Shown piece by piece: positions 29,150-48,840 of a stretch of DNA of 64,000 nucleotides (positions are counted from its first letter, which is position 1; every line of letters begins with the position of its first letter). Source of the stretch: Bacillota bacterium. GTDB lineage: Bacteria; Bacillota; Proteinivoracia; UBA4975; VEMY01. The DNA is taken from NCBI GenBank assembly GCA_009711825.1, contig VEMY01000026.1:1-64000 (forward strand), written 5' to 3'. The translations under genes were made by a program, and so were the position numbers. A model generated the notes under the pieces. The model searched no databases. It worked only from the letters and a program-made list of their open reading frames with translations, and was not told the DNA's origin.

Positions 29150-29160
29150 GGGTGAATAAC

Positions 29161-34092: not shown

Positions 34093-35370
34093 TTGAAGAA
34101 GGCATTTCCAGGCGGCATTCATCCAAATTACAATAAAGAGTTGACTGCCGGTAAACCCATCGCAACCTTGCCCCTGCCCAAAAAGGTGCGGCTGTTGTTG
34201 CAACAGCATTTGGGCGCTCCTTGCGAGCCGAAGGTTCAAAAGGGCGATGAGGTAACGGTAGGGCAGCTAATAGCCGATTCGGATAAGTTTGTTTCGGCTC
34301 CCGTGCACGCCAGTGTTGCCGGCAAGGTAGTCAGTGTAGATAGTGAAGCAATTGAAATCGAAACTGATGCGACTAACTCTGAGTTTCAGGGTTCCCCTGC
34401 AAGTTACCAAGGCCCTGAAGAATTGCGTCAGCTTATTCGGGAAGCAGGCATTGTCGGTTTGGGAGGTGCAACCTTCCCAACTCATGTCAAGCTTTCGCCT
34501 CCTAAAGACAAGGAAGTTCACACATTGGTTCTAAACGGGGCTGAATGTGAACCATTTCTTACCACCGACCATCGAGTTATGGTGGAACAGGGACAAGCTG
34601 TCATTGATGGCCTGAAGTTATTAATGGAGGCCTGTGGTGCGTCTAAAACGCTAATAGGAATTGAAGAAAACAAACCCGACGCAATCGAAACCCTCAAGGA
34701 ACTCTCGGCAAATGACGATAATATCCAGGTTTTCGGAGTTGAGGTTGTTTACCCCCAGGGCGGTGAAAGACAGCTTATCAAGACTCTAACTGGTCAGGAA
34801 GTGCCGGTAGGCGGTTTGCCGCTGGATTTGGGGATTGTTGTCAGCAACATTGCCACCGCGGTAGCGGTCCACCAGGCAGTGCGTCAAGGAAAGCCATTGA
34901 TTGACCGGGTTGTTACAGTGTCCGGTGCCGGTGTGGCCGAACCGCAAAATGTCTTGGTCCGCTTAGGAACCCCCGTCCAGGATTTACTGGATTTCTGTGG
35001 CGGATTATCGGAAGAAGCAGCTAAAGTTGTAAATGGCGGGCCAATGATGGGCAAGGCTTTATCGGATCTCAATGCCCCTGTAACCAAGGGAACCTCCGGG
35101 ATTCTCGCGTTTACTGAAGATGAGGTGCGAATCTATGAAGAACGCACCTGTATCCGTTGCGCTTCCTGTGTCGATGCCTGTCCAATGAAACTTTTGCCCA
35201 ACTATCTTGCTTTATACAGCAAGCGCAAGCGTTATGAAACTGCAGAAGATATTAACCTGTTTAATTGTATCGAGTGCGGGTGCTGCAGCTACGTATGTCC
35301 GTCCCGGATTCCGATTGTGCAGTACATTCAGAATGCTAAGCATGAAATAAACATCAAGCGTCGCAAGTAA
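34093..35370 (+). CDS. rnfC: Rnf complex subunit C
   Basis: Peripheral subunit that exchanges electrons with NAD(H) in the ferredoxin:NAD oxidoreductase. The N-terminal region has a barrel-sandwich domain and the NuoF-like flavin fold (LNGAECEPFLTTDH). SLBB domain at about 240-300. Two [4Fe-4S] motifs close the chain: CIRCASCVDACPM and CIECGCCSYVCPS. The 425 residues match clostridial RnfC, shorter than proteobacterial forms. TTG 34093 follows AAGGGGTGAT. It is the first gene of the classical clostridial order rnfCDGEAB. Confidence 0.97.
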   Translation: MKKAFPGGIHPNYNKELTAGKPIATLPLPKKVRLLLQQHLGAPCEPKVQKGDEVTVGQLIADSDKFVSAPVHASVAGKVVSVDSEAIEIETDATNSEFQGSPASYQGPEELRQLIREAGIVGLGGATFPTHVKLSPPKDKEVHTLVLNGAECEPFLTTDHRVMVEQGQAVIDGLKLLMEACGASKTLIGIEENKPDAIETLKELSANDDNIQVFGVEVVYPQGGERQLIKTLTGQEVPVGGLPLDLGIVVSNIATAVAVHQAVRQGKPLIDRVVTVSGAGVAEPQNVLVRLGTPVQDLLDFCGGLSEEAAKVVNGGPMMGKALSDLNAPVTKGTSGILAFTEDEVRIYEERTCIRCASCVDACPMKLLPNYLALYSKRKRYETAEDINLFNCIECGCCSYVCPSRIPIVQYIQNAKHEINIKRRK

Positions 35371-35398
35371 ATCCGTAGAGGAGAACGGAGGGAAGGTT

Positions 35399-36337
35399 AT
35401 GACAAAGTTTAAAGTAGGACCGTCGCCGCACATTCTCGGCCCCAAGTCAATCAACAGTGTAATGTGGGATGTGGTGATTGCACTTATTCCCGTGACTGTA
35501 GCTGCTGTACTATATTTTGGCATTGCTGCTGTGTGGGTGTTGTTGGCGTCTACCCTGTCCGCAATGATCGTTGAAGCTCTGATTATTTATCGTAATCTGC
35601 GTCCTGCCAGTATTATCGGCGATGGCAGTGCCGCTGTCACCGGCTTGCTGGTTGGCTTGATAGTGCCGCCTGCCGCACCATTGTGGCTGGCGATTATCGC
35701 CAGCACTGTAGCAATAGTCCTCGGCAAGCATGTGTTTGGCGGCTTAGGTAAAAATATCTTTAACCCTGCTTTGGTAGGACGGGCATTTGTCTTTATGTCT
35801 TGGGCTGGTTTGATGACTATGTGGCATTCGCCGCTGCCATTCAGTAACTGGTTTACGCGGATTAATGCCGATATGGTTACCGCTGCTACTCCCTTGGGCG
35901 GAGCTCCGGACAGCCTAACCGATTTAGTTACTGGGAACATTGCCGGCAGTCTCGGAGAGACCTCAGTGCTGGCGATACTTCTTGGTGGTGTCTACCTATT
36001 CGTCAAGGGCCATATCGACTGGCGGATTCCCGGCTTTTACCTGGGCACTGTGGCCGTGTTTTCCCTGGCAGCAGGACAGGATCCTCTGTTTCATATAACT
36101 GCCGGTGGAGTCATGTTTGCAGCAATGTTTATGGCCACAGATATGGTGACGACACCAGTGACCAAGACCGGAAGGATTGTCTTTGGTTTGGGTTGTGGAC
36201 TTATTACTATGTTTGTGCGTCTTTTCGCATCCGCGCCAGAGGGTGTTACCTACGCCATCTTGTTCATGAACGCGCTGGTGCCTCTGATTGATCGCTACTC
36301 TGTACCCAAGACCTTCGGGGAGGTGAGGGGCAAGTGA
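35399..36337 (+). CDS. rnfD: Rnf complex subunit D
   Basis: Integral membrane subunit (about 10 helices) of the NqrB/RnfD family, part of the ion-translocating core. The covalent FMN site is the Thr in VTAATPLGG at about residue 162-170. GKHVFGGLGKNIFNPALVGRAF is the conserved loop. The 312-residue length is normal. GGAGGG precedes ATG 35399. The stop overlaps rnfG by 4 bases. Flavinylation would require the ApbE encoded downstream at 47827. Confidence 0.95.
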   Translation: MTKFKVGPSPHILGPKSINSVMWDVVIALIPVTVAAVLYFGIAAVWVLLASTLSAMIVEALIIYRNLRPASIIGDGSAAVTGLLVGLIVPPAAPLWLAIIASTVAIVLGKHVFGGLGKNIFNPALVGRAFVFMSWAGLMTMWHSPLPFSNWFTRINADMVTAATPLGGAPDSLTDLVTGNIAGSLGETSVLAILLGGVYLFVKGHIDWRIPGFYLGTVAVFSLAAGQDPLFHITAGGVMFAAMFMATDMVTTPVTKTGRIVFGLGCGLITMFVRLFASAPEGVTYAILFMNALVPLIDRYSVPKTFGEVRGK

Positions 36338-37998
36338 ATGCAAGTATCCGAATGATTCTGGTTCTGACTTTGATTGCGGCGGTGGCCGCAGGCTTACTGG
36401 CCGGCATCAATGCCTGGACTGAGCCAATTATTGAAGAGAACACAGCAATCCGTTTGCAGGAAACCTTGGCCAAAGTAATTGACGCAGATGAATTTGTTGA
36501 AGAAGAAATCGAAGACAGACTGACCATGTGGCTTGCCAACAAAGGTGGCGACCATGTGGGATACGTCGTTCAGTATCTCGGAGGAGGCTACAGCAGCGCT
36601 GGCATCAATGTCCTGGTGGGGATTGATACAGCAGGCGCTGTCACCGGCGTAGAGATCTTCGCCCATAGTGAAACACCGGGGCTTGGCGACAAGATTGAAA
36701 ATCCTTCCTGGCTGCAACGGTTTGAAGGACAGGATTTTGAGACCGGTATCGATGTGGACAATATTTCCGGGGCGACAGCCTCTGCCCAGGGTGTAATTGG
36801 CAGTGTTCGCAACGCGCTGGAATATGTTGCTCTGTATGCTGGACTTTTAGAGCCGCCTGTCGAAATTGATTTCGGTGAGATTCCCGATGGCACTTACACA
36901 GGTACCGGTCGCGGCTTTGGCGGCGACATAACTGTTGAAGTGACAATTGCCGACGGCAGACTGGCTGAAGTAGTGGTGCTCAGTCACAGCGACACACCTG
37001 GTTATGTTGAACCTGCTCTTGATGCTATCCCCGACCGCATGGTGGATGAGCAGCAGCTGGATGTTGATATCGTTTCTGGCTCCACTGCAAGTTCTAACGG
37101 AATCATTAACGCTGTTCGCGACGCTCTTAGTGAGTTTGTCGGCGAGGAGCTTGAGGACGTAGACATTGAAGCACTTGCTTCCGGCCGTTATATTGGCACA
37201 GCGTCATCATTCGGCGGCGACCTGACTGTAGAAGTTGCAGTGGCCGGCGGCAAGATTACCGACATTACCGTTCTCAGCCATACTGACACTGAAGATATCG
37301 CTGAGCCCGCTTTTGAGGAAGTGATTGAGCGGATGCTCAACGAACAGTCCCTGGAAGTAGACCTGGTCAGCGGCGCCACCATTTCAGCAGAAGCGTTGCT
37401 GCTGGCTGTTGAAAACGCCCTCCGCGGAACAGTAATAATTCATGTTCCCGACCTTAGCGATGGCGTTTATGTTGGCGAGGCAGAAGGCTTCAGTGGTCAG
37501 ATTCGGGTTGCCGTGACAGTGGAAGCTGGTGAAATCACCGGTATAGAAATTGTCGATCATTCCGATACACCAGAAATCGCCAATCCCGCTTTTGACGAAA
37601 TGATTGATGCGGTCCTGGAGTCACAAGCTCTGGATGTGGATTTTGTCAGCGGAGCGACAATTAGCTGTGAAGGCTTTATTGAGGCAATTCGCGAAGCATT
37701 CCTGAGCGGTCCACAGCTTGAGATTAGTGCCGTTCCCGACGGCGAATATACCGGCAGGGCCGATGGGTTTTACGATGAAATTGAAGTTCGGGTGGTGGTT
37801 GCCGGTGGCGAGATTAGCGAGATCGAGGTAACCGAAGAACAGGATACTCCGGAAATCGCTCGCCCCGCTTTTGAACAAACCATCGAACGCATCATAAATG
37901 CTCAAAGTCTGGATGTTGACAACGTTAGCGGTGCAACTATATCTGTAAACGGTTTGCTTGATGCTGTCGAAACAGCGTTGCGCAGTGCCGGTGAATAG
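36334..37998 (+). CDS. rnfG: RnfG with five tandem FMN-binding domains
   Basis: Membrane-anchored flavin subunit. Residues 7-28 form the anchor and the rest is extracytoplasmic. Ordinary RnfG proteins are about 180-220 residues with one FMN_bind domain; this one is 554 residues with five. The flavinylation motifs S-G-[AS]-T place covalent FMN at Thr148, Thr251, Thr349, Thr442 and Thr535, about 93-103 residues apart. Domains 2-5 share the plan D-G-x-Y-x-G, a beta meander, S-[DH]-T-[DP]-x(4)-P-A, then the SGAT loop. Such a chain would act as a flavin wire extending electron flow outside the membrane. The ATG overlaps rnfD and the gene is followed by rnfE. The C-terminal four domains are more similar to each other than to the first, suggesting later duplications. 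Confidence 0.93.
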   Translation: MNASIRMILVLTLIAAVAAGLLAGINAWTEPIIEENTAIRLQETLAKVIDADEFVEEEIEDRLTMWLANKGGDHVGYVVQYLGGGYSSAGINVLVGIDTAGAVTGVEIFAHSETPGLGDKIENPSWLQRFEGQDFETGIDVDNISGATASAQGVIGSVRNALEYVALYAGLLEPPVEIDFGEIPDGTYTGTGRGFGGDITVEVTIADGRLAEVVVLSHSDTPGYVEPALDAIPDRMVDEQQLDVDIVSGSTASSNGIINAVRDALSEFVGEELEDVDIEALASGRYIGTASSFGGDLTVEVAVAGGKITDITVLSHTDTEDIAEPAFEEVIERMLNEQSLEVDLVSGATISAEALLLAVENALRGTVIIHVPDLSDGVYVGEAEGFSGQIRVAVTVEAGEITGIEIVDHSDTPEIANPAFDEMIDAVLESQALDVDFVSGATISCEGFIEAIREAFLSGPQLEISAVPDGEYTGRADGFYDEIEVRVVVAGGEISEIEVTEEQDTPEIARPAFEQTIERIINAQSLDVDNVSGATISVNGLLDAVETALRSAGE

Positions 37999-38010
37999 GA
38001 GGTGGACGGC

Positions 38011-38667
38011 GTGAAATTAGCTCAAGAATTTAAGCGCGGTATTATTCTTGAAAACCCTGTGTTCCGGCTCTTGTTAGGTCTTTGCCCGGTGCTGGCGGTA
38101 ACAACATCTGCAGTCAACGGTTTTGGCATGGGCCTGGCCACCCTTAGTGTTTTGCTGGGGGCAAACATTGTCGTTTCCTCGTTGAAAAACATCATTCCCA
38201 AACAAGTGCGGATACCATGTTTTATTGTGATCATAGCCACCTTTGTGACTATAGTCGGCATGGTTATGGAAGCATTTTTCTATCCACTCTTTGAGGCCTT
38301 GGGGCTCTTCATCCCCCTGATTGTAGTTAACTGTTTGATTCTCGGGCGTGCTGAGGCCTTTGCCTCACAGAAGAGTATCGGCGCCTCTGTAGTCGACGCA
38401 GTGGTTATGGGGACCGGCTTCACCCTCAGTCTTGGAGTGTTGGGAATCGTGCGTGAATTCTTTGGTACCGGCGCCATTTTTGGCGTTGACATTGTTCTGC
38501 CGATTCGCAACTTTGTCGCCGGGTTGTTCAACGCTCCGGCAGTTGAAAGCGTTGATATGGCCGCAGTGTTCAGTCTTGCTCCCGGCGCCTTTATCTCGCT
38601 GGGTCTGTTGTTGGCGATAATAAACTACTTTAGCGCCAAAGGCGCCACCGAAAGGAGGGGCAACTAA
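38011..38667 (+). CDS. rnfE: Rnf complex subunit E
   Basis: Six-helix membrane subunit of the RnfE/NqrD family, one half of the RnfA-RnfE pair that holds an iron-sulfur centre in the membrane. The motif GLCPVLAVTTSAVNG (residues 24-38) includes the conserved Cys and NCLILGRAEAFA contains the second Cys. GTG 38011 is chosen because TAGGAGG at 37996-38002 is 8 bases upstream; a GTG at 38002 overlaps that site. The length of 218 residues is normal. The stop TAA overlaps ATG of rnfA. Confidence 0.95.
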   Translation: MKLAQEFKRGIILENPVFRLLLGLCPVLAVTTSAVNGFGMGLATLSVLLGANIVVSSLKNIIPKQVRIPCFIVIIATFVTIVGMVMEAFFYPLFEALGLFIPLIVVNCLILGRAEAFASQKSIGASVVDAVVMGTGFTLSLGVLGIVREFFGTGAIFGVDIVLPIRNFVAGLFNAPAVESVDMAAVFSLAPGAFISLGLLLAIINYFSAKGATERRGN

Positions 38668-39260
38668 TGGCTGAATTATTTGCGCTCTTCTTTGCAGCCA
38701 TATTTGTAAACAACTTTGTGCTCTCCCGTTTTTTAGGAATTTGTCCGTTCTTTGGTGTTTCCAAACGGGTAGAAACTTCAGTCGGCATGGGTATGGCAGT
38801 CATCTTTGTTATGACTTTGGCTTCGGTGATAACCTGGCTGCTGCAGGCATTCTTTTTGGATCTACTTGGGCTCGGATACCTGCAGACAATCACCTTCATC
38901 CTGGTTATTGCATCCTTGGTGCAGCTGGTTGAGCTGGCAGTACAAAAGATCAGTCCCACCCTCTATAAGGCGCTGGGTATTTTCCTGCCTCTGATAACCA
39001 CAAACTGTGCAATTCTCGGTTTGGCGCTCCTGAACATCAGTCCTGACATCTTTGTGCCGGCAAGCGGATCGTACAATTTGCTGCAATCCATCGTCCATGC
39101 TCTGGGCGCCGGCGTCGGCTTTACACTGGCTTTGGTAATGCTTGCGGGAATCCGGGAGCACCTGGATAACCTGGAGCTGCCAAAACCATTGGCCGGTGTT
39201 CCCATTGCTCTGATTTCTGCAGGTATTCTCGCTCTGGCATTTTCCGGGTTTGTACTCTAG
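38667..39260 (+). CDS. rnfA: Rnf complex subunit A
   Basis: Six-helix membrane subunit homologous to RnfE, with inverted topology. NNFVLSRFLGICPFFGVS (residues 12-29) holds the first conserved Cys and LITTNCAILGLAL the second; the pair in RnfA and RnfE ligates a [2Fe-2S] centre in the membrane. The length of 197 residues is normal. Its start overlaps the rnfE stop by one base and AAAGGAGGGG precedes it. Confidence 0.96.
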   Translation: MAELFALFFAAIFVNNFVLSRFLGICPFFGVSKRVETSVGMGMAVIFVMTLASVITWLLQAFFLDLLGLGYLQTITFILVIASLVQLVELAVQKISPTLYKALGIFLPLITTNCAILGLALLNISPDIFVPASGSYNLLQSIVHALGAGVGFTLALVMLAGIREHLDNLELPKPLAGVPIALISAGILALAFSGFVL

Positions 39261-39280
39261 GTAGCAGGGGAGTGAATTAA

Positions 39281-40081
39281 ATGAGCTTTTTAGATCTTTT
39301 GGCTCCCATCCTGGGATTGGGAGGATTGGGGCTGTTTTTCGGGATTGTCTTGGTTGTTGCCAATATCGTTTTTAGTGTGGAACAGGATTCCCGGGTTGAG
39401 GACATTCTCGAGGTACTGCCAGGCGTCAATTGCGGTGCCTGCGGATATCCGGGATGCAGCGCCTTTGCTGAGGCTGTCGCATCAGGAGAAGCGCCCGTCA
39501 ATGGCTGCCCTGTTGGCCGCCAGAAAGTTGCTGATGAAATCAGCAGGATTATGAATGTTTCCGTGGGCCATGAGGACGAGCGATATGTGGCCAAGCTGGC
39601 TTGTCGTGGAACTGATGAAGTGGCGAAGACGAAAATGGTCTATTACGGCATCCAGGATTGTCGCGCTGCTGCTCGGATCGATGGTGGCGACAAGGCTTGC
39701 CCTTATGGGTGTTTAGGATTGGGCAGTTGTATTGAGGTTTGTCCGTTTGACGCAATTTCCACGGGGCAAGATGGCCTGCCTGTCTTTGATGAACTTAAAT
39801 GCACTGGCTGTAATCGTTGTAAAAGTATTTGTCCCAAGGATGTTATTCGCATGGAGCCCTCAGGCGCCTATGTTGATATCGCCTGCAACTCCCGGGACAA
39901 AGGCAAAGCAGTGCTGCAGGTCTGCAAAGTGGGCTGTATTGCATGTTCCAAATGTGTCAAGACTTGTCCTGTGGACGCAATTTCGATGCGTGATAATCTG
40001 GCAGTTATTGACCATCATGAATGCACCAATTGCGAAGCATGCATTGATGCCTGCCCGACCAATTCCATAGTTCGTGTGTGA
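39281..40081 (+). CDS. rnfB: Rnf complex subunit B
   Basis: Ferredoxin-accepting subunit. A single N-terminal membrane helix (about residues 7-29) is followed by the Fe-S domain VNCGACGYPGCSAFAEAV with a [4Fe-4S] cluster. Then come ferredoxin-type motifs: CSIEVCPF-like (CIEVCPFDAI), CTGCNRCKSICPKDVI, CIACSKCVKTCPVDAI and CTNCEACIDACPTNSI, so at least three more clusters. The length of 266 residues is normal for Clostridia. It takes electrons from reduced ferredoxin. The stop is followed by a hairpin and then the antiporter genes. Confidence 0.96.
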   Translation: MSFLDLLAPILGLGGLGLFFGIVLVVANIVFSVEQDSRVEDILEVLPGVNCGACGYPGCSAFAEAVASGEAPVNGCPVGRQKVADEISRIMNVSVGHEDERYVAKLACRGTDEVAKTKMVYYGIQDCRAAARIDGGDKACPYGCLGLGSCIEVCPFDAISTGQDGLPVFDELKCTGCNRCKSICPKDVIRMEPSGAYVDIACNSRDKGKAVLQVCKVGCIACSKCVKTCPVDAISMRDNLAVIDHHECTNCEACIDACPTNSIVRV

Positions 40082-40090
40082 TTATGGCAT

Positions 40091-40116
40091 GGCGCCTGTC
40101 TTCGCAGGCAGGCGCC
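40091..40116 (+). repeat. Hairpin between rnfB and the antiporter genes
   Basis: GGCGCCTG and CAGGCGCC form a perfect 8-bp stem around a 10-base loop, 10 bases after the rnfB stop. No T-run follows (GTCGCC), so it may pause transcription or protect the mRNA rather than terminate it. Confidence 0.5.
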
Positions 40117-40146
40117 GTCGCCTTTATCCGGGAGGGGCGGTTTATA

Positions 40147-40632
40147 TTGTTTGGCCATAAATTTATCTTCTTTTTAGTCTTGATGCTGTTTTGGCTTGTT
40201 ATAACTAATTTCAGTTTGTTGGGTGCAGTGCTTGGGGTGCTGACAGCTTTCGCGGTTGTGTTGATTAACCGCGACCTGCTGGATTCTTTGTTTTCACGGG
40301 AGAGGAAAATTAAACCGGCCAAGGTAGGAATGCTGGCAATTTATAGTTTCAGTCTTCTATGGCAGATTGTATTGGCTAATCTCCAACTGGCGCGGATTGT
40401 TCTTGACCCGAAGCTGCCTGTGCAGCCGGGGTTGGTGACATTTAATCCGGGGCTGAAAACCGATTTGGCAAAGACATTGCTCGCCAATTCCATCACCCTG
40501 ACCCCCGGCACTCTGACAATCGCCGTAGAGGGAGATACATTTGTTGTGCATGCTCTGACATTAGCTGCGGCCCGGGACGTTGTTGAATGGCGATTAATTC
40601 ATTTGCTGCGGCGGATTGAGGAGGGGTTATAA
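40147..40632 (+). CDS. mnhE: Mrp antiporter subunit E-like
   Basis: Small membrane subunit of Na+/H+ antiporters, homologous to MrpE/MbhA. Two helices near the N-terminus (FIFFLVLMLFWLVI and LLGAVLGVLTAFAVVLI) are followed by the family block LLANSITLTPGTLTI. The longest reading starts at 40078 in the end of rnfB, but the hairpin lies there and GGGAGGGG at 40130-40136 points to TTG 40147. The length is then 161 residues, normal. It opens a ten-gene cluster in which most genes overlap. Confidence 0.88.
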   Translation: MFGHKFIFFLVLMLFWLVITNFSLLGAVLGVLTAFAVVLINRDLLDSLFSRERKIKPAKVGMLAIYSFSLLWQIVLANLQLARIVLDPKLPVQPGLVTFNPGLKTDLAKTLLANSITLTPGTLTIAVEGDTFVVHALTLAAARDVVEWRLIHLLRRIEEGL

Positions 40633-40896
40633 ATGACTCAGTTTATGATCGGCATTTGCGTTTTCTTAATGCTCTTAATCTTTGTCGCTCTTGCTAGGGC
40701 TGTGGTTGGACCGACCGCTATAGACAGGATTCTGGCAATTAACATCATTGGCACTAAAACGGTAGCGATTATCGCAGTTATCTCCTATGTGTTTGGCGAG
40801 GTATTTTTCCTCGATGTGGCAATTGTTTACGCATTAATCAGTTTCCTGATGACCGTCAGTGTGGCCAAGTATCTGGAAATGGGTAATATATCATGA
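40633..40896 (+). CDS. mnhF: Mrp antiporter subunit F-like
   Basis: An 87-residue membrane protein with three helices, homologous to MrpF/MbhB. The family pattern RAVVGPTAIDRILAINIIGTK starts near residue 23 (core: GPTAIDRILAIN) and the second helix VAIVYALISFLMT follows. ATG follows the mnhE stop directly. Its stop overlaps mnhG by 4 bases. Confidence 0.9.
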   Translation: MTQFMIGICVFLMLLIFVALARAVVGPTAIDRILAINIIGTKTVAIIAVISYVFGEVFFLDVAIVYALISFLMTVSVAKYLEMGNIS

Positions 40897-41222
40897 TTGA
40901 TATCTTGGTTGTAATATTGATGGTAATCGGCGCTTTCTTCTTTTTCGTCGGAGCACTTGGTTTGTGGCGGTTCCCAGATGTCTATTCCCGCGCACATGCA
41001 ACAACAAAATGCGATACTCTCGGCGGTGGCCTGATAATATTGGCTTTGGCGCTGCGCCTGGGTTCTGTTACCGACGCTTTGAAGTTAATTGCAATCATTA
41101 TCCTTATCTGGATAACCAACGCAACTGCGGCCCATGTTATTGGCCGGGCTGCATACAACAACCGGTATCCTCATGTGGAGGGGACTTACAAGTGGAATTA
41201 CCACGGCGAGGAGGATCGGTAA
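40893..41222 (+). CDS. mnhG: Mrp antiporter subunit G-like
   Basis: A 109-residue membrane protein with three helices, homologous to MrpG/MbhC. The signature LGLWRFPDVYSRAHATTKCDTLG (core FPDVYSRAHATTK) is at about residues 23-45. The length is normal. It overlaps mnhF by ATGA and its stop abuts the next start. Confidence 0.92.
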   Translation: MIDILVVILMVIGAFFFFVGALGLWRFPDVYSRAHATTKCDTLGGGLIILALALRLGSVTDALKLIAIIILIWITNATAAHVIGRAAYNNRYPHVEGTYKWNYHGEEDR

Positions 41223-41462
41223 ATGCTGGAGATTCTTAATGCTTTGATGCTGATTTTCCTTGTAGTTTGCGCCGTGGTTGTTGCTAGAACCCGAGATTTA
41301 CTTAGCGCAGTGATTATGTTTGCCGCCTATTCTCTGGTAATGGCGATTATTTGGCAACAGCTGGAAGCGCCGGACTTGGCCCTGACCGAAGCTGCAATGG
41401 GGGCAGGAGTCACAACGATTTTGCTTTTGGTCGTAATTAGCAAGACCAGGAGGAATGAATAA
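41223..41462 (+). CDS. Antiporter subunit with DUF4040 (MbhD-like)
   Basis: A 79-residue, three-helix protein that corresponds to the DUF4040 segment found near the C-terminus of large MrpA proteins and to free-standing MbhD of archaeal membrane-bound hydrogenases. The pattern RDLLSAVIMFAAYSLVMA and LEAPDLALTEAAMGAGVTT (core APDLALTEAAMG) is diagnostic. Presence as a separate gene shows that the MrpA-type subunit is split here. Confidence 0.85.
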   Translation: MLEILNALMLIFLVVCAVVVARTRDLLSAVIMFAAYSLVMAIIWQQLEAPDLALTEAAMGAGVTTILLLVVISKTRRNE

Positions 41463-41779
41463 TGCGTCTACTAGTGAAAAGCGTTCGCTCAGTTCTTGCC
41501 ACTGCAATCCTGGTCTGTATCGCTGTGCTGATGTTCAGCATGGTAGCTGAAATGCCGACATTCGGTGAGCCGGGGCCGGCTTATAACGAACTAACCCAAT
41601 ATCTGTTGGAGAATACAGTTACCGATACCGGCGCTCAAAATGTTATCTCGGCAATTATTCTCGATTACCGGGCTTACGACACGCTTGGTGAGGCTTCGGT
41701 TTTGTTTGCGGGCATCGCCGCAGTTTTAACTGTTCTGCTTGCCCACAGAAGTGCCGGAAGGGGGCAGAAAAATGGGTGA
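41462..41779 (+). CDS. Antiporter subunit, MbhE-like
   Basis: A 105-residue protein with an N-terminal helix (VLATAILVCIAVLMFSMVA) and a C-terminal helix (ASVLFAGIAAVLTVLLA), with the loop NVISAIILDYRAYDTLGEA between. This loop is the hallmark of the segment that links DUF4040 with MnhB in Mrp and Mbh complexes. It starts at the stop codon of the preceding gene and overlaps mnhB by 8 bases. Confidence 0.82.
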   Translation: MRLLVKSVRSVLATAILVCIAVLMFSMVAEMPTFGEPGPAYNELTQYLLENTVTDTGAQNVISAIILDYRAYDTLGEASVLFAGIAAVLTVLLAHRSAGRGQKNG

Positions 41780-42194
41780 TCTTGTCCTGCAGACTGTTGC
41801 TAAACTGATTGTGCCGTTTATTCAGCTGTACGGCATGTATATTGTTTTCTATGGACACATTTCTCCGGGTGGCGGTTTTGCAGGCGGCGCAATAATTGCC
41901 TCGAGCTTTATCCTATATGCTCTGGCTTATGATGTGGATGCGGGCTTTAAACGTTTGCCGCGTTTGGTTGCCAAGTGGCTTGAGTCCTTGGGCGGTCTGA
42001 TTTTCATCATTGTCGGTGTTTTGGGGCTAGCGGCCGGAGTCAATTTTCTCACTAATTTTCTCGACAAGGGAACTGCCGGCAGCCTCGTCAGTGGTGGAAT
42101 TATACCCTTATTGACGATTGCCATTGGCCTCAAGGTCTGCAGCACAATTGTCACTTTGTTTTATCACCTCCTGGAGGAGGGGAAACATGATTAG
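41772..42194 (+). CDS. mnhB: Mrp antiporter subunit B-like
   Basis: A 140-residue four-helix subunit. The family block YGMYIVFYGHISPGGGFAGG (core HISPGGGFAGG) is at about residues 17-36. ATG 41772 is preferred over an in-frame ATG at 41739, which lies inside the previous gene, because GGAAGGGGG precedes it. It overlaps both neighbours. Confidence 0.92.
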   Translation: MGDLVLQTVAKLIVPFIQLYGMYIVFYGHISPGGGFAGGAIIASSFILYALAYDVDAGFKRLPRLVAKWLESLGGLIFIIVGVLGLAAGVNFLTNFLDKGTAGSLVSGGIIPLLTIAIGLKVCSTIVTLFYHLLEEGKHD

Positions 42195-42549
42195 CACTAT
42201 TTTTGCTAATTTACATTATTTTGTCGCTATATTACTATTTTTGATTGGTTTCCATACGATGTTGACCCACTCCAACCTGATAAAGAAAATTATCGGCATG
42301 AATATCATGGAAACATCGGTATTTTTGCTGTTTATCTCGGTGGGTTATGTCAGGGGCGGCAATGCACCGATTATAGATGATCAAATTTCCGCCTATATAA
42401 ATCCGTTGCCATCGGCTTTGATTCTAACCGGCATTGTTGTTGGCGTCAGTCTGACGGCTTTTGCCCTGGCAATGGTTATCAAGATTTACGAATACTATGG
42501 CACCGTTAATACTGATGAAATTATGCGGTTGAGGGACGGGGAAGAATGA
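42187..42549 (+). CDS. mnhC: Mrp antiporter subunit C-like (NuoK homologue)
   Basis: A 120-residue three-helix protein of the NuoK/MrpC family: FHTMLTHSNLIKKIIGMNIM, then VFLLFISVGYVRGG and ALILTGIVVGVSLTAFALAMVIK (core LTGIVVGVSLTAFALA). ATG 42187 follows GGAGGAGGGG. Its stop overlaps mnhD by 4 bases. Confidence 0.92.
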   Translation: MISTIFANLHYFVAILLFLIGFHTMLTHSNLIKKIIGMNIMETSVFLLFISVGYVRGGNAPIIDDQISAYINPLPSALILTGIVVGVSLTAFALAMVIKIYEYYGTVNTDEIMRLRDGEE

Positions 42550-44018
42550 TACACTTACCTTTGATGCTGGTTGTGTTCTATCTGGCGATGGCATTCATCA
42601 CGCCTCTATTGGGCCGGTTAAAAAAGTTTTCCAGTCGTTATTTCGGGGTGGCCGTCAGTGCTGCAGGCTTGCTGATAGTAGGGGCCACCGCGTTTCATGT
42701 ATTTGATGCCGGTCCGTTTCGGTATTTTCCCGGCAATTGGGCGAGCCCGGTGGGCATTGAGATTGTTGTCGATGAAATCACGGTTTTATTGCAGTTGACG
42801 ATTGCTGTCATCGGATTTTTGGTTTCGGTCTATAGTGTCGATGATTTAGACCGGGAAATCGATGAACGGATGCATAATTGGTTCTATGTTATCTATTTTT
42901 TAATGATGGCTGCCCTCAACGGGTTAGTTATGTCATTTGACCTTTTCAATATCTTTGTGTTTACAGAAATCGGTACCCTAACTGCCTGCGCAATGGTGGC
43001 TATCAAGTCGAAAAGAGTGTGTCTTCGGGCTGCAATAAATTACTTGATTCTCAGCACTTTGGGCTCGGGGATGATTTTGATGGGGATTGCCCTGATTTAT
43101 ATGGTGACAGGGCACTTGAACATCGGCGCCGTTGCCCAGGTGCTGCCGGAAGCCACGGAAGCGTTTACCTGGAATGTAAGGATTGCGCTTTCGCTCTTCG
43201 TAGTTGGCTTTGGAATTAAGTCAGCGCTGTTCCCGCTGCATCTCTGGCTGCCTGATGCGCATTCATCAGCACCGACGCCATCCAGTGCCTTATTGTCAGG
43301 TGTCGTCCTCAAAGTCTTTATTGTCGTTATTGGCAGGATTGTGTTCCAGATGTTCGGCGTCGAGCTCTTCGTTCAAATTCCAATACCGTTGGTAATCCTG
43401 ACATTGGCAACCATGGGGATTTTCCTCGGTTCGCTGTTTGCGATAACTCAGACGGACATCAAGCGTATGTTGGCGTACTCCAGTGTGGCACAGGTTGGTT
43501 ACATTTTTATGGGCATAGCCCTGGTTAGTGCACGGGGCGCCACAGGCGGGCTGCTTCACATTTTCAATCATGCTGTGATGAAGAGCCTGTTATTTACCGC
43601 TGCCGGAGCAATTATATACAAAACCGGAATCCGGAAAATCGATGATTTGAACGGAATCGGTTATAAGATGCCACTAACGATGGCTGCCTTCGGTGTGGGT
43701 GCGCTGTCAATGGTCGGCATTCCAGGCACCAGCGGCTTTTTTAGCAAACTTTGGCTTGCATTAGGTGCTTTGGATGCGGGACAACCGTTTTTTGTGCTGG
43801 TAATTATTATCAGCAGTTTGCTAAACTCCGTTTATTATCTACCGATTATCGTGCGAGCGTTTTTTGGCGGGGGATCTGGAAAGTTCACCATGGATCAGCT
43901 CCCCTGGAAGATGCTTCTGCCGTTGGTTATTTTAGCAGCGATAAATTTATATTTTGGCATCCTGCCCGGCTCACTGGTGCGTCTGGCAGAACAAGCAGCA
44001 GCTATCTGGCTGCACTGA
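42546..44018 (+). CDS. mnhD: Mrp antiporter subunit D-like 1 (NuoM/NuoN homologue)
   Basis: A 490-residue proton/sodium-transporting subunit with about 14 helices. The helix 5 Glu is in NIFVFTEIGTLTA; the helix 7 Lys is in FGIKSALFPLHLWLPDAHSSAPTP; a second Lys is in LLSGVVLKV. These charged residues form the transport channel. ATG overlaps mnhC. It is the first of three MnhD paralogues in a row. Confidence 0.93.
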   Translation: MIHLPLMLVVFYLAMAFITPLLGRLKKFSSRYFGVAVSAAGLLIVGATAFHVFDAGPFRYFPGNWASPVGIEIVVDEITVLLQLTIAVIGFLVSVYSVDDLDREIDERMHNWFYVIYFLMMAALNGLVMSFDLFNIFVFTEIGTLTACAMVAIKSKRVCLRAAINYLILSTLGSGMILMGIALIYMVTGHLNIGAVAQVLPEATEAFTWNVRIALSLFVVGFGIKSALFPLHLWLPDAHSSAPTPSSALLSGVVLKVFIVVIGRIVFQMFGVELFVQIPIPLVILTLATMGIFLGSLFAITQTDIKRMLAYSSVAQVGYIFMGIALVSARGATGGLLHIFNHAVMKSLLFTAAGAIIYKTGIRKIDDLNGIGYKMPLTMAAFGVGALSMVGIPGTSGFFSKLWLALGALDAGQPFFVLVIIISSLLNSVYYLPIIVRAFFGGGSGKFTMDQLPWKMLLPLVILAAINLYFGILPGSLVRLAEQAAAIWLH

Positions 44019-44033
44019 GTGGAGGCGGTAATT

Positions 44034-45515
44034 ATGGCTGATTTTATTAACTATCTGCCGGTCTGGGCAACAATTTTGCCTATCGTGGCGACCATTCCCC
44101 TTTATATAATTGAACGACGGTCTGCCCGGTTGCGCGATTTCTTTGCCCAATTGATAACCGGAACTACTTTGGTCTTGGTCATAGCAATGTACCCGCAAAT
44201 CAGGGATGTCGGCGAGGTGGCAATTGCGTTTCCGCGGATATTCCCGCCCTTTGGCATTTCTTTCCGTGTTGATATGCTGGGCTTTATCTTGGCAGCGATT
44301 GCTTCGACAGTTTGGTTTTTATCCACGGTCTATTCAACTGTTTACATGGACCATGAGGGCGGTCAAAACCGTTTTTATCCCTTTTTGCTGCTCAGTCTCG
44401 GCGGCTGCATGGGTGTGTTTTTGACCGGTGATTTCTTCAGCCTGTTTGTGTTCTTTGAACTGATGTCCCTTTCTTCATATGTGTTGGTTGTCCACGAGGA
44501 GTCTGCTGCGGCCATGGCAGCCGGGTATAAGTATTTGATTCTGACTTTGATTGGCGGTCTGGCCCTGTTTTTTGGAATCGTCATTGCCTACGAAATCGCC
44601 GGCAATGTCAATATTCTACCCGACAACTTTCTGTTCAGCGAACCGAATCAGCTTGCGCTCTCTGCTTTTCTCGCATTCATAGTCGGCTTTGGCATGAAGA
44701 TGGGTGTGTTCCCGCTGCATGTATGGCTGCCCGACGCCCATCCTGTGGCGCCGTCACCGGCCAGTGCGCTCTTGTCAGGGATAATGCTTAAAACCGGCGC
44801 CTACGGTATGATGCGGGTTATCTATAATGTTTACGGCGTTGATTTTATCCAGGAAGCAGGTTGGCACAACATTCTTTTGGTAATGGCCGCAATTACAATC
44901 TTCTTGGGTTCGGCGGTGGCGATTGCCCAAACCGATATCAAGCGTCGACTTGCATATTCTAGCATTGGTCAAATGGGCTATGTTTTGCTAGGCATGGCGT
45001 TCATGAATCTTAATGGTCTGACTGGGAGTATTTTTCACATTTTTTCCCATGCACTGATGAAGTCTACCTTGTTCTTATGTGCCGGGGCAATCATTTATAA
45101 AACCGGCAAACGAAAGATTAATGAGCTTTCGGGTATTGGCTTGCAGATGCCAATTACCATGGCTGCTTTTTCCATCGCTGCTTTTGCAATGATTGGGATT
45201 CCGCCGCTCAACGGGTTTATCTCTAAACTTGTGCTTGCCATGGGAGCGCTGGACGCAGGAAAGTGGTATTTTGTGGTATTGTTAATTCTCAGTAGTTTGA
45301 TGAACGGTATTTATTATCTACCGATTATTATTTCTGCTTTCTTCGGTGTCAGCCCCGAAAAGAAAGTGTGGGCAAAACCGTTTTCCGAGTTGAAGCTGTC
45401 AATGCTTTGGCCAGTATGTGTGCTGGCAATTGCTTGCATCTTGTTTGGCTTGTTCCCTCTGAATTTTCCTTTGACATGGGCCGAAATCGCTGCCAAAATG
45501 TTATTGGGGGGATAA
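44034..45515 (+). CDS. Mrp antiporter subunit D-like 2 (NuoM/NuoN homologue)
   Basis: A 493-residue paralogue of the preceding subunit. The helix 5 Glu is in FSLFVFFELMSLSSYV, the helix 7 Lys in FGMKMGVFPLHVWLPDAHPVAPSP, and a further Lys in ALLSGIMLKTGAYG. All key charged residues are kept, so it should be transport-competent. ATG 44034 fits GGAGG at 44021-44025; a GTG at 44019 overlaps this site. It probably replaces the MrpA/NuoL-type subunit. Confidence 0.9.
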   Translation: MADFINYLPVWATILPIVATIPLYIIERRSARLRDFFAQLITGTTLVLVIAMYPQIRDVGEVAIAFPRIFPPFGISFRVDMLGFILAAIASTVWFLSTVYSTVYMDHEGGQNRFYPFLLLSLGGCMGVFLTGDFFSLFVFFELMSLSSYVLVVHEESAAAMAAGYKYLILTLIGGLALFFGIVIAYEIAGNVNILPDNFLFSEPNQLALSAFLAFIVGFGMKMGVFPLHVWLPDAHPVAPSPASALLSGIMLKTGAYGMMRVIYNVYGVDFIQEAGWHNILLVMAAITIFLGSAVAIAQTDIKRRLAYSSIGQMGYVLLGMAFMNLNGLTGSIFHIFSHALMKSTLFLCAGAIIYKTGKRKINELSGIGLQMPITMAAFSIAAFAMIGIPPLNGFISKLVLAMGALDAGKWYFVVLLILSSLMNGIYYLPIIISAFFGVSPEKKVWAKPFSELKLSMLWPVCVLAIACILFGLFPLNFPLTWAEIAAKMLLGG

Positions 45516-45519
45516 ATCC

Positions 45520-47790
45520 ATGTCCATGGAATTTCTAATTTTCGGTGCCCTGGCAGTTCCGCTTATGGGTAGTGTTATTTTTCTCACTGCCCGCAAGCGC
45601 CTGAATAACCCTGGGATTATCAATTTGATTCTTACCTTGCTCACAGCCGCGTTACTATTCGGTGCCGGCATTAAGGCCGGTGGAGAAACAGCCCGAGTAT
45701 CCTTGTCCAATGTATTGTTGCTGGGCTTGAATTTGCGAATGGATACCCTCGCTTTTTTCTTCACAACATTGTTTACGGCTGCTGCCTCAGTCGTGTCAAT
45801 TTTCTCCGTTCAGTTTTTGAAAAATATAAATTCCCCGGGGCGTTTCTTTATGTTCATGCAGTTGACACTGCTGGGTTGTCTGGGGGTTGTGCTGGCGGCT
45901 GATCTTGTAACATTGTTTCTATTTTTTGAGTTAATGACTTTTGCTTCGTACGTGCTAGTTATTCACCGGGAAAACGAGCAAGCGCTGAATGCAGGTTATT
46001 TATATTTACTACTTGGTGTTGTCGGTGGTCTTGCCTTGCTTACCGGGATTATCCTGGTCTATTATGTGGCTGGCAATACTGATTTCCTGCCTCTCCAGGC
46101 CGAATCAAATATTATTATCGCCGCAGCTGTTTGCTTTCTTTTCGGTTTTGGCATTAAAACCGGTGTTGTGCCGCTGCATATTTGGATGCCAAAGGCATAC
46201 AGCGTGTCCCCGGTGCCTGTGAATATTATCTCTTCAGCTTTGATGATAAAGACCGGCGCTTATGGCCTGCTGCGGGTATATTCGGAAGTATTGTTCCCCT
46301 TTGGCGGCACAGCCAATAGCAGTTTTATGGGCTGGCTTCTGGTGGGACTGGGGCTGGGCAGCATGTTTGTCGGCGCCTTTCTGGCTCTGCGCCAGACCAA
46401 CATGTTAAAGACGCTGGCGTACAGCAGCATCAGTCAAATAGGCTATGTGATACTGGGACTGGGAGTTGCCTTATTTGTTCGGGGAAATGTAGGCCTAGGC
46501 GTATCCGGAATGCTGTTTCACATTCTTAACCACTCTGTTTTTAAAGGCACTTTGTTCCTGGTGGCGGGTGTCATCCTGGCTTATGCCGGCACTCTGGATT
46601 ACAAGCGTCTAGGTGGATTGGCAAGACAAAGTCCGTTGCTAACGGCTACATTTGCCTTTGGCGCCCTGGGTATAGCCGGTCTGCCTGGACTTAATGGCTA
46701 TGCCAGTAAAACATTTTTGCATCATGGTATTGAAGCTTTGGAACACTATAACCCCGGTTGGGTTTTATGGTTTGGTGAAAAAGTCTTTGTTGTCGCAAGC
46801 GCGATAACGATTTGCTATTTTCTAAAAATGTTTTTGAATGTGTTTATGGGGCCTGTCCGCGGGGATGCAGTTATTCCCCGTCGTCTACCTCGCTGGTACC
46901 AGGTGCCGCTATTAATCGGCTCAGCAGCAATCGCTTTTGTCGGTCTGTTTCCCCATTTCACGACCCGGCAATTGATTGTTCCTGCTATGGACACTGTTGG
47001 CGTTGGGGAATCGGCGTTAGATTACGCTCTTTCCGTCAATGTGTGGAGCGGTCCTGATTTGCTAGGCATGCTTAAGACAATCGCCGTTGCGGCGGTGATT
47101 TGGTTGTTGGTGGTCAAAGTAAGACTTGACCGCTTGCGTTTTCCGGATTGGTTCAGTATTGAGAAATTATTTTACCGCCCAATTGCGCAGGGGTTTATGA
47201 TGCTCTGTTTAGGCCCCGGTGTGTTTATTGACCGAAAGGTCAACCAAGTCTATCATGGTACTGGCGATGCCTCCATGGGAATTTGCCGCTATGTGGGCAA
47301 AGTTGATCATTCTATCAACAAAATTTACGCCAGTACTGGCGATATGTCTTTGGAGCTATGCCGGTATCTGGGTCATGTCGATGGTTCTATAAACCGCCTT
47401 TATTACCGTGTGGGCAATATTTCGGTTGATGTATGCAATGCAATCGATGCCTGGGATCAAGCCTTGGACAGTCTTTATATGTCCATGGGCCGCCGCTCCG
47501 AACAGTTTTGTGTCAATCTTGATCGACTGGACCAGGATTTGGATAAACTGTATTCAGACCTGGGTCTTGTTTCGACCCGGGCGATTCACCGGCTTAATTC
47601 GATGGAGCAGGGGTTGTTTGATGTCTCTGAATACAAAAAACCACCTGTCAAACGGCAGTGGTGGCATTCCCTGCAGGACCAATTGGCTAATCCCCAATGG
47701 GAACTGAGCAATCTTAATGTTGAATCAATTTTTGTTGCAATTGCTTTTGTCGTCGTTGTGGTAATATTGTTGGTGTACGGCACACGTTAA
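45520..47790 (+). CDS. Mrp antiporter subunit D-like 3 with C-terminal 25-residue repeats
   Basis: A 756-residue protein. Residues 1-480 are a NuoM/MnhD-like membrane domain with the helix 5 Glu (LFLFFELMTFASYV) and helix 7 Lys (FGFGIKTGVVPLHIW). The otherwise conserved LPDAH after it is MPKAY, so Asp and His are lost. A further helix (about 513-531) leads to five tandem 25-residue repeats at 572-696, then a soluble linker and a last membrane helix (about 733-753). The repeat region is hydrophilic. ATG 45520 is used; ATG 45526 is also possible. It ends the antiporter cluster. The loss of polar residues suggests a modified or structural role. Confidence 0.88.
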   Translation: MSMEFLIFGALAVPLMGSVIFLTARKRLNNPGIINLILTLLTAALLFGAGIKAGGETARVSLSNVLLLGLNLRMDTLAFFFTTLFTAAASVVSIFSVQFLKNINSPGRFFMFMQLTLLGCLGVVLAADLVTLFLFFELMTFASYVLVIHRENEQALNAGYLYLLLGVVGGLALLTGIILVYYVAGNTDFLPLQAESNIIIAAAVCFLFGFGIKTGVVPLHIWMPKAYSVSPVPVNIISSALMIKTGAYGLLRVYSEVLFPFGGTANSSFMGWLLVGLGLGSMFVGAFLALRQTNMLKTLAYSSISQIGYVILGLGVALFVRGNVGLGVSGMLFHILNHSVFKGTLFLVAGVILAYAGTLDYKRLGGLARQSPLLTATFAFGALGIAGLPGLNGYASKTFLHHGIEALEHYNPGWVLWFGEKVFVVASAITICYFLKMFLNVFMGPVRGDAVIPRRLPRWYQVPLLIGSAAIAFVGLFPHFTTRQLIVPAMDTVGVGESALDYALSVNVWSGPDLLGMLKTIAVAAVIWLLVVKVRLDRLRFPDWFSIEKLFYRPIAQGFMMLCLGPGVFIDRKVNQVYHGTGDASMGICRYVGKVDHSINKIYASTGDMSLELCRYLGHVDGSINRLYYRVGNISVDVCNAIDAWDQALDSLYMSMGRRSEQFCVNLDRLDQDLDKLYSDLGLVSTRAIHRLNSMEQGLFDVSEYKKPPVKRQWWHSLQDQLANPQWELSNLNVESIFVAIAFVVVVVILLVYGTR
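47233..47607 (+). repeat. Five tandem 75-base (25-residue) coding repeats
   Basis: Units begin at residues 572, 597, 622, 647 and 672 of the third MnhD-like protein. The consensus is x-[VIL]-[ND]-x-[IVL]-Y-x(3)-G-x(2)-S-x(2)-[IVLF]-C-x(2)-[IVL]-x(3)-D, with Cys conserved in the first four units. There are no gaps between units. They diverge at DNA level, so they are old rather than recent duplications. Confidence 0.9.
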
Positions 47791-47826: not shown

Positions 47827-48840
47827 GTGAGATATCTACGCGTTGGGTTGTTGTTGGTAGCCATATTCTTTCTGGTAGCCTGCTCAAATGGCCAGTCGCC
47901 GACAAATAACCCAGACCTAAAAGAGTATACCGAAACTTATATCGATATTATGGATACATTGGTGGATGTCCGGATTGTTACGACAATGGAAAGCGCAGAG
48001 GCCGAAAGCGTTTTGACAGCGGTGAAAGCGGAAATGCAGCGTCTGGAAGCAATTCTCAGCGCTCATCTGCCGGACAGTGATGTGGCAAAGATCAGCGCCA
48101 GTTCTGAACCAGTGTCTGTAAGTCCCCATACCTTGAATGTAGTCAACACGGCGCTTCAATATGCCGACTTGACCAATGGCACTTTTGATATAACGCTGGC
48201 GCCTGTTTTGGACCTATACGACTTTGGCGAAAAACGTTTTCCGGATGAAGCGCAATTGGCCGATAATCTGCCGCTTGTCGACTATACACGGGTTGAAGTG
48301 GACACGGACAGACAAACTATAGCGCTGCCGAAGAGTATGCGTCTTGACCTGGGTGGGATTGCCAAGGGTTATATTGTCGATCGTGCTGTTGATTTTCTAC
48401 TTGCCAACGGTGTTGAATATGCCACTGTCAATGCCGGTGGCGATATTCGGGTATCAGGCTCCAAGCCCGACGGAACGCCCTGGCGGATTGGCATTAAGAA
48501 TCCAAATGAAATACAGCATCTGTTTGCTGTGATTGAAGTGTCCGACAGCGCGATTGTTACTTCGGGCGATTATGAGCGGTATTTTGAACAAGACGGCATA
48601 CGTTTTCATCATATTATTGATCCGGCCACAGGTCTGCCAGGTAATCTTTGCAAAAGTGTAACTGTTGTCGCGCCGACTGCAGAACTGGCCGATTTGCTTT
48701 CTACGGCAATTTTTGTGATGGGACCGGAGGAAGGGCTCGCCCTTGCTGAATCCCTTGACTCCGTGGAAGCTTTGATTTGGGACGCTGATGATGAGATTCA
48801 TTGGACCAGCGGTCTTGAAGACCGGTTAGAGTTGAGGTAA
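47827..48840 (+). CDS. apbE: FAD:protein FMN transferase (ApbE), lipoprotein
   Basis: Attaches FMN covalently to Thr in S-G-A-T motifs of RnfG, RnfD and related proteins on the outer membrane face. The lipobox LVAC ends at Cys19. The ApbE core includes MDTLVDVRI, FDITLAPVLDLYDFG, LDLGGIAKGYIVDRAVD and VNAGGDIRVSG, the Mg/FAD-binding blocks, and HHIIDPATGLP near the C-terminus. The length of 337 residues is normal. GTG 47827 follows GGGAGG. Its place after rnf fits its substrate, the five-domain RnfG. Confidence 0.95.
   Translation: MRYLRVGLLLVAIFFLVACSNGQSPTNNPDLKEYTETYIDIMDTLVDVRIVTTMESAEAESVLTAVKAEMQRLEAILSAHLPDSDVAKISASSEPVSVSPHTLNVVNTALQYADLTNGTFDITLAPVLDLYDFGEKRFPDEAQLADNLPLVDYTRVEVDTDRQTIALPKSMRLDLGGIAKGYIVDRAVDFLLANGVEYATVNAGGDIRVSGSKPDGTPWRIGIKNPNEIQHLFAVIEVSDSAIVTSGDYERYFEQDGIRFHHIIDPATGLPGNLCKSVTVVAPTAELADLLSTAIFVMGPEEGLALAESLDSVEALIWDADDEIHWTSGLEDRLELR

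Follow-up and report, generated by a model that had tools for sequence, protein, structure and literature searches.

A 25-residue repeat array in the lateral-helix region of an antiporter-like subunit encoded beside Rnf in Bacillota

Rnf and the complex I-type antiporter modules are customarily viewed as separate routes from redox reactions to ion gradients, and we know of no canonical Rnf with antiporter-like subunits. In the antiporter-like proteins MrpA, MbsH' and NuoL, a lateral helix joins TM15 to TM16 (PMC9568556, PMC7684303, PMC3274701). This helix lies on the cytoplasmic surface in MrpA (PMC9568556), and helix HL of MbsH' bridges two pumps and makes the dimer interface (PMC7684303). 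For the transverse helix of complex I, a mutagenesis study concluded that its role is purely structural (PMC9802314), and pumping is impaired by some insertions of six to seven residues (PMC3274701). Belevich et al. found no clear conserved sequence pattern in the NuoL helix (PMC3274701).

The window analyzed here is a stretch of 64,000 nucleotides from a Bacillota bacterium (GenBank assembly GCA_009711825.1, contig VEMY01000026.1, forward strand). It encodes Rnf, an Mrp module and three antiporter-like proteins, the last of which, D3, carries a tandem repeat array. In our proposal, Rnf is tied to an ion-pumping arm whose terminal antiporter-like subunit, D3, bears a strap; it is the most likely reading, to which we give roughly even weight for and against. 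No description of a joint Rnf-Mrp cluster with a D3-type protein was found in the literature searched. The cluster consists of the following genes:

34093..40081, + strand: Rnf operon, in the order C-D-G-E-A-B
40078..42549, + strand: MBH-type Mrp module, MnhE, MnhF, MnhG, MbhD, MbhE, MnhB and MnhC
42546..44018, + strand: D1, antiporter-like subunit (490 aa)
44019..45515, + strand: D2, antiporter-like subunit (498 aa), kept alongside Rnf and D3 where the locus is minimal
45520..47790, + strand: D3, antiporter-like subunit (756 aa) of predicted MrpA/NuoL-type layout
47827..48840, + strand: ApbE, FMN transferase (Pfam ApbE, E 1e-89)

RnfC was identified by TIGR01945 and RnfB and RnfG by their Pfam domains, and relatives have the same gene order; the remaining Rnf genes are presumably those indicated by order and family knowledge. 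In the Mrp module, MnhE, MbhE and MbhD were identified by Pfam and MnhB by PF04039, and we take the others to be what their position and family knowledge suggest. ApbE is expected to flavinylate RnfD and RnfG. The window RnfG (36334-37998) is a 554 aa protein with five FMN_bind domains; RnfG is about 270-285 aa in many relatives, and in genome G001 it is 467 aa long, with four such domains. The window RnfB (266 aa) has ferredoxin domains that are missing from the RnfB of genus g4, where the protein is 97-101 aa (L021, L022, L023, L098) and consists of the membrane anchor and first Fe-S motif only. Elsewhere in the window, an in-frame TGA at 30217-30219 splits a formate dehydrogenase alpha subunit (29152-31794, ...DHCARL*HAPTVAGLA...) and looks like a selenocysteine codon.

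D3 and the placement of its extension

The D3 core is a conventional 14-helix antiporter-like unit in which the channel residues are kept. It matches Proton_antipo_M (PF00361) with an E-value of 5e-54 and 183.9 bits against a Pfam cut-off of 21.5. Its scores fall below the cut-offs of both the MrpA subfamily model TIGR00940 (210.3 bits; NCBIfam cut-off 920.45) and the NuoL model TIGR01974 (153.6 bits; curated cut-off 407.5). Residues E137, K213, H220, K244, H334, H338 and K397 are invariant in all 21 repeat-bearing D3 orthologues, and we take all of them but H220 to be the residues of antiporter-like subunits known as Glu of TM5, Lys of TM7, TM8 and TM12, and His of TM11. In a maximum-likelihood tree of core sequences, all D3 proteins group in a single clade, separate from D1/D2 and from NuoL (SH-aLRT 97). 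Two changes are needed on this tree to account for repeat-bearing D3, of which the starred branches force only one.

Along D3, the following features were located:

46186..46200, + strand: MPKAY, residues 223-227 (LP.AH in most relatives)
47059..47115, + strand: TM15, residues about 514-532 (hydropathy)
47137..47235, + strand: conserved start of the extension, FP.W.S.E..Y.P.A.GF, residues about 540-572 (alignment)
47236..47310, + strand: repeat 1, residues 573-597
47311..47385, + strand: repeat 2, residues 598-622
47386..47460, + strand: repeat 3, residues 623-647
47461..47535, + strand: repeat 4, residues 648-672
47536..47610, + strand: repeat 5, residues 673-697
47719..47775, + strand: TM16, residues about 734-752 (hydropathy 3.14)

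The first-pass annotation reported MPKAY in place of LPDAH in the channel of D3, and residues 223-227 do read so. Residue 227 is Tyr instead of His in 6 of the 21 repeat-bearing orthologues: the window D3, three proteins of family f70 and two of f21. A dead channel or pump was considered and rejected, since Tyr-227 is recurrent and the charged channel residues checked are retained. The window D3 has changed five residues that the other 20 proteins hold invariant (at most four in any other protein), and its terminal branch is long (0.94 in the maximum-likelihood tree); it therefore seems to have evolved somewhat faster.

The C-terminal extension is confined to D3, D1 and D2 being without it, and its five gapless 25-residue units are real, both as first reported. 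The register moves by one residue: the units span 573-697 in the family register, not 572-696, or 574-698 when anchored on VNQVY/INKIY. Lag 25 is the top ungapped self-match of the extension, with a score of 201 compared to at most 47 in 2,000 composition shuffles. TRF detected no recent DNA tandem duplication in the window repeats, the units of which have diverged. The window extension has no Pfam or NCBIfam match, the arrays of relatives match these databases below cut-offs only, and the matches of the extension to PDB sequences have E-values of 0.1 or worse, all to unrelated coils.

The repeat array sits between TM15 and TM16, the final helix of D3. In a Foldseek search of the PDB, the top three matches of D3 are MrpA chains (6z16_A, 7qru_A, 7d3u_A). 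The NuoL profile spans the full D3 and leaves the repeats as inserted sequence within the lateral-helix region, before TM16, in an alignment that was forced end to end and is weak evidence at its far end. D3 is thus predicted to have the MrpA/NuoL-type layout of TM15, amphipathic lateral segment and TM16. The first-pass annotation knew of no family with such an architecture; that holds for the repeat array, but the surrounding layout is already known from MrpA, NuoL and MbsH'. The novelty is a linker built as an exact, expandable 25-residue array.

Gene neighborhood and the tie to Rnf

Genome searches covered the phylum of the window, Bacillota, and the sample was gathered by similarity to an Rnf-linked query, its loci being related by descent. 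Extension-bearing orthologues are found in 10 of 13 genomes of the window's class. Of 399 genomes sampled from the phylum, 40 gave a match in a profile search, not all of them with repeats. Scanning genome contigs with a single protein gave no match; an alignment-based scan gave two loci, in UBA5496 and UBA5286. The D3 of the UBA5496 genome G011 (L024:8253-10687) falls into two ORFs of 389 and 420 aa that lie in different frames, through either a frameshift or an error of assembly.

The order Rnf CDGEAB, Mnh E-F-G, MbhD-E, MnhB-C, D1-D2-D3, ApbE recurs in several families, and most loci have the full Mrp small-subunit set. Whether homologues always sit beside Rnf-Mrp clusters had been raised at first pass, and they frequently but not always do. 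At least four Rnf genes accompany D3 in 19 of 23 repeat-bearing loci (the window and 18 fetched loci, the 23 including the window and the fragmented L019), as opposed to 0 of 9 loci with repeat-free D3 only, though these counts are not phylogenetically independent. Three repeat-bearing loci of family f21 have an RnfG-like gene as the sole Rnf gene beside D3, and in L057 the contig ends at the repeat-bearing copy and shows no Rnf. Among the nine repeat-free loci, counted by labelled Rnf genes, L073 carries RnfG together with two proteins without a label, which we read as RnfE/RnfA-like. The window genome contains a second Mnh-D1-D2-D3 operon (L096), which is Rnf-free and whose 622 aa D3 has no repeats. 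It also contains a third MnhE/MnhB/antiporter-like locus (G000:C56:3459-6381), with a TGA within one frame. Three other Rnf-free clusters (L058, L061, L072) each combine several D2-like genes with two or three that are D3-like, and some of these clusters have most Mnh small subunits.

In four genomes from two distant families (G010, G012, G286, G105), Rnf is followed directly by D2-D3. These genomes are 96-98% complete, and genome-wide profile searches found neither MnhE nor MnhB in them; a search with D2 returned D2 and D3 with no other MrpD-like gene. MnhE, MnhB and MrpD-like genes were the only Mrp genes covered by these searches. Because MnhE, MnhB and further MrpD-like genes are missing, D2-D3 in these genomes is predicted not to be an Mrp antiporter. 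Relatives with the full set occur in the same genus (G009) and in the same family (G216) as minimal-locus genomes, so the simple reading would be that Mrp subunits were lost at least twice. In G008, an 86% complete genome from the genus of G009, G010 and G012, Rnf and ApbE are contiguous, without D2 and D3. One genus presents a deletion series: Rnf with full Mrp and D1-D2-D3 (L021/L019), Rnf with D2-D3 (L022/L023) and Rnf alone (L098).

Since D2-D3 in some bacteria stays with Rnf after the other tested antiporter parts are lost, Rnf may have acquired a complex I-type pump arm of its own. A link to Rnf had been suggested at first pass, and the gene context in 19 of 23 loci and the four genomes that retain D2-D3 with Rnf after Mrp loss support it at the level of the genes; a D3 helix touching Rnf would go beyond that. 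The adjacency of D3 and Rnf may also reflect co-regulation. In an unlikely but serious alternative, Mnh-D1-D2-D3 is an ordinary Mrp antiporter, co-transcribed with Rnf as both handle Na+/H+, and the repeats are a neutral elongation of the lateral helix. The small-subunit set of most loci, the intact channel residues of D3 and a copy number that varies without obvious correlate would all fit an independent antiporter. Such an antiporter is difficult to reconcile with four genomes that have D2-D3 and Rnf but no MnhE, MnhB or other MrpD-like gene, with the lack of repeats in Rnf-free D3 copies, even within the window genome, or with the strong conservation of Tyr-6, Gly-10, Asp-24 and the 25-residue phase.

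The repeat array across Bacillota

With a position matrix, 117 repeat units were collected from about 28 Bacillota genomes. The unit spacing is exactly 25 in 86 of 86 cases, with no indel. Tyr-6 (96%), Asp/Glu-24 (92%), Gly-10 (83%) and Asn/Asp-3 (77%) are conserved. The Tyr, Gly, Ser, Cys and Asp first noticed in each window unit agree with Tyr-6, Gly-10, small-13, Ala/Cys-17 and Asp/Glu-24 of the family. Repeat number does vary among homologues, a point left for checking at first pass, with 2-7 units per array. Three relatives have 75-bp tandem DNA repeats with an 86-93% match, and at the protein level a pair of units in L066 shares 96% identity. Copy number turns over in whole units. A role as a length ruler is not supported, the Spearman correlation between repeat number and antiporter-like gene count being 0.0. 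By eye, two Bacillota NuoL sequences (L087, L092) show the motif FD..VVDG.VN twice, which is a lead only.

The period 25/7 = 3.57 residues, or seven helical turns per unit, holds 67% of the hydrophobicity power. The apolar face points to 193, 217 and 197 degrees before, across and after the conserved Gly, and Pro makes up 6 of 2,925 residues. Because the period is 3.57, the apolar face stays in phase across Gly and Pro is nearly absent, a single continuous amphipathic helix is favored. The rod or clamp envisaged at first pass fits insofar as an amphipathic, near-Pro-free array is inserted at the lateral-helix site of relatives. The structure prediction suggested as a check at first pass gave AlphaFold2 models with pLDDT <50 over the extension, and the helical shape is accordingly a tentative one.

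The residues of the apolar stripe are spaced 4-3-4-3-4-3-4, those at positions 9, 13 and 17 are small, and the period of 3.57 is near that of a coiled coil. The array could accordingly pair with its counterpart in another complex, or with a different coil, and so join complexes into dimers or arrays; MbsH' HL, located at the MBS dimer interface (PMC7684303), is a precedent. A self-pairing array could tolerate variable length, but both of its ends are tethered to the membrane and the pairing is predicted only, and we consider oligomerization through the array improbable. More improbable still is a compact cytoplasmic domain docking a soluble partner, in the form of a solenoid whose short helical hairpins have a break at every conserved Gly: AlphaFold2 models of the full length and of the extension both interrupt the helix near every Gly, but with pLDDT <50 over the extension and only the window, L024 and L025 as alignment rows, and 86 spacings without indel, an apolar face in phase across Gly and scarce Pro argue against it.

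Proposed assembly and comparison with known systems

In the proposed arm tied to Rnf, the C-terminus of D3 would be a strap along the side of the arm, with TM15 and TM16 as its anchors; MrpA, NuoL and MbsH' have the same arrangement. The strap would have been lengthened in the D3 lineage through tandem duplication of a 75-bp/25-residue unit with one apolar face. The array would then be one long amphipathic helix, almost straight, lying against the membrane on its cytoplasmic side. This helix would fasten D3 to D2 (and D1) and would either extend to Rnf subunits or connect adjacent complexes. Ion pumping by Rnf ferredoxin:NAD+ oxidoreduction and H+/Na+ exchange would operate as one assembly. 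We put forward tentatively, and with more doubt than belief, the broader reading of a previously undescribed hybrid respiratory enzyme, in which Rnf is joined to a complex I-type arm, Rnf-D2-D3, with none of the other Mrp subunits searched for, is the minimal form, and the modular D3 helix strap evolves in length by whole 25-residue units. The conserved cluster in several Bacillota families, together with the genomes that have Rnf and two subunits, makes it directly testable whether Rnf drives a complex I-type arm. The mechanical role of the lateral helix in complex I is a matter of long debate, and the array offers naturally occurring variants of this helix that differ in length.

Like D3, MrpA (the three chains above) has an antiporter-like core followed by TM15, a cytoplasmic lateral helix and TM16. 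Unlike D3, it runs on into MbhD/MbhE-like domains, which are separate genes in the window, and the excerpts available on MrpA report no 25-residue repeat array. NuoL/ND5 of complex I, also a distal antiporter-like subunit, shares TM15, a long amphipathic lateral helix and TM16 with D3 but belongs to a separate clade. We take MBS to resemble the window in its MBH-type Mrp gene set, with MbhD and MbhE as separate subunits. MbsH' of archaeal MBS (6u8y_X) has the layout of D3, with the long helix HL across two pumps in the excerpts available (PMC7684303), which describe no repeats; in place of Rnf, it is partnered by a sulfane sulfur reductase. The Rnf complex itself is common to the window, with full RnfCDGEAB upstream of D3 and ApbE downstream.
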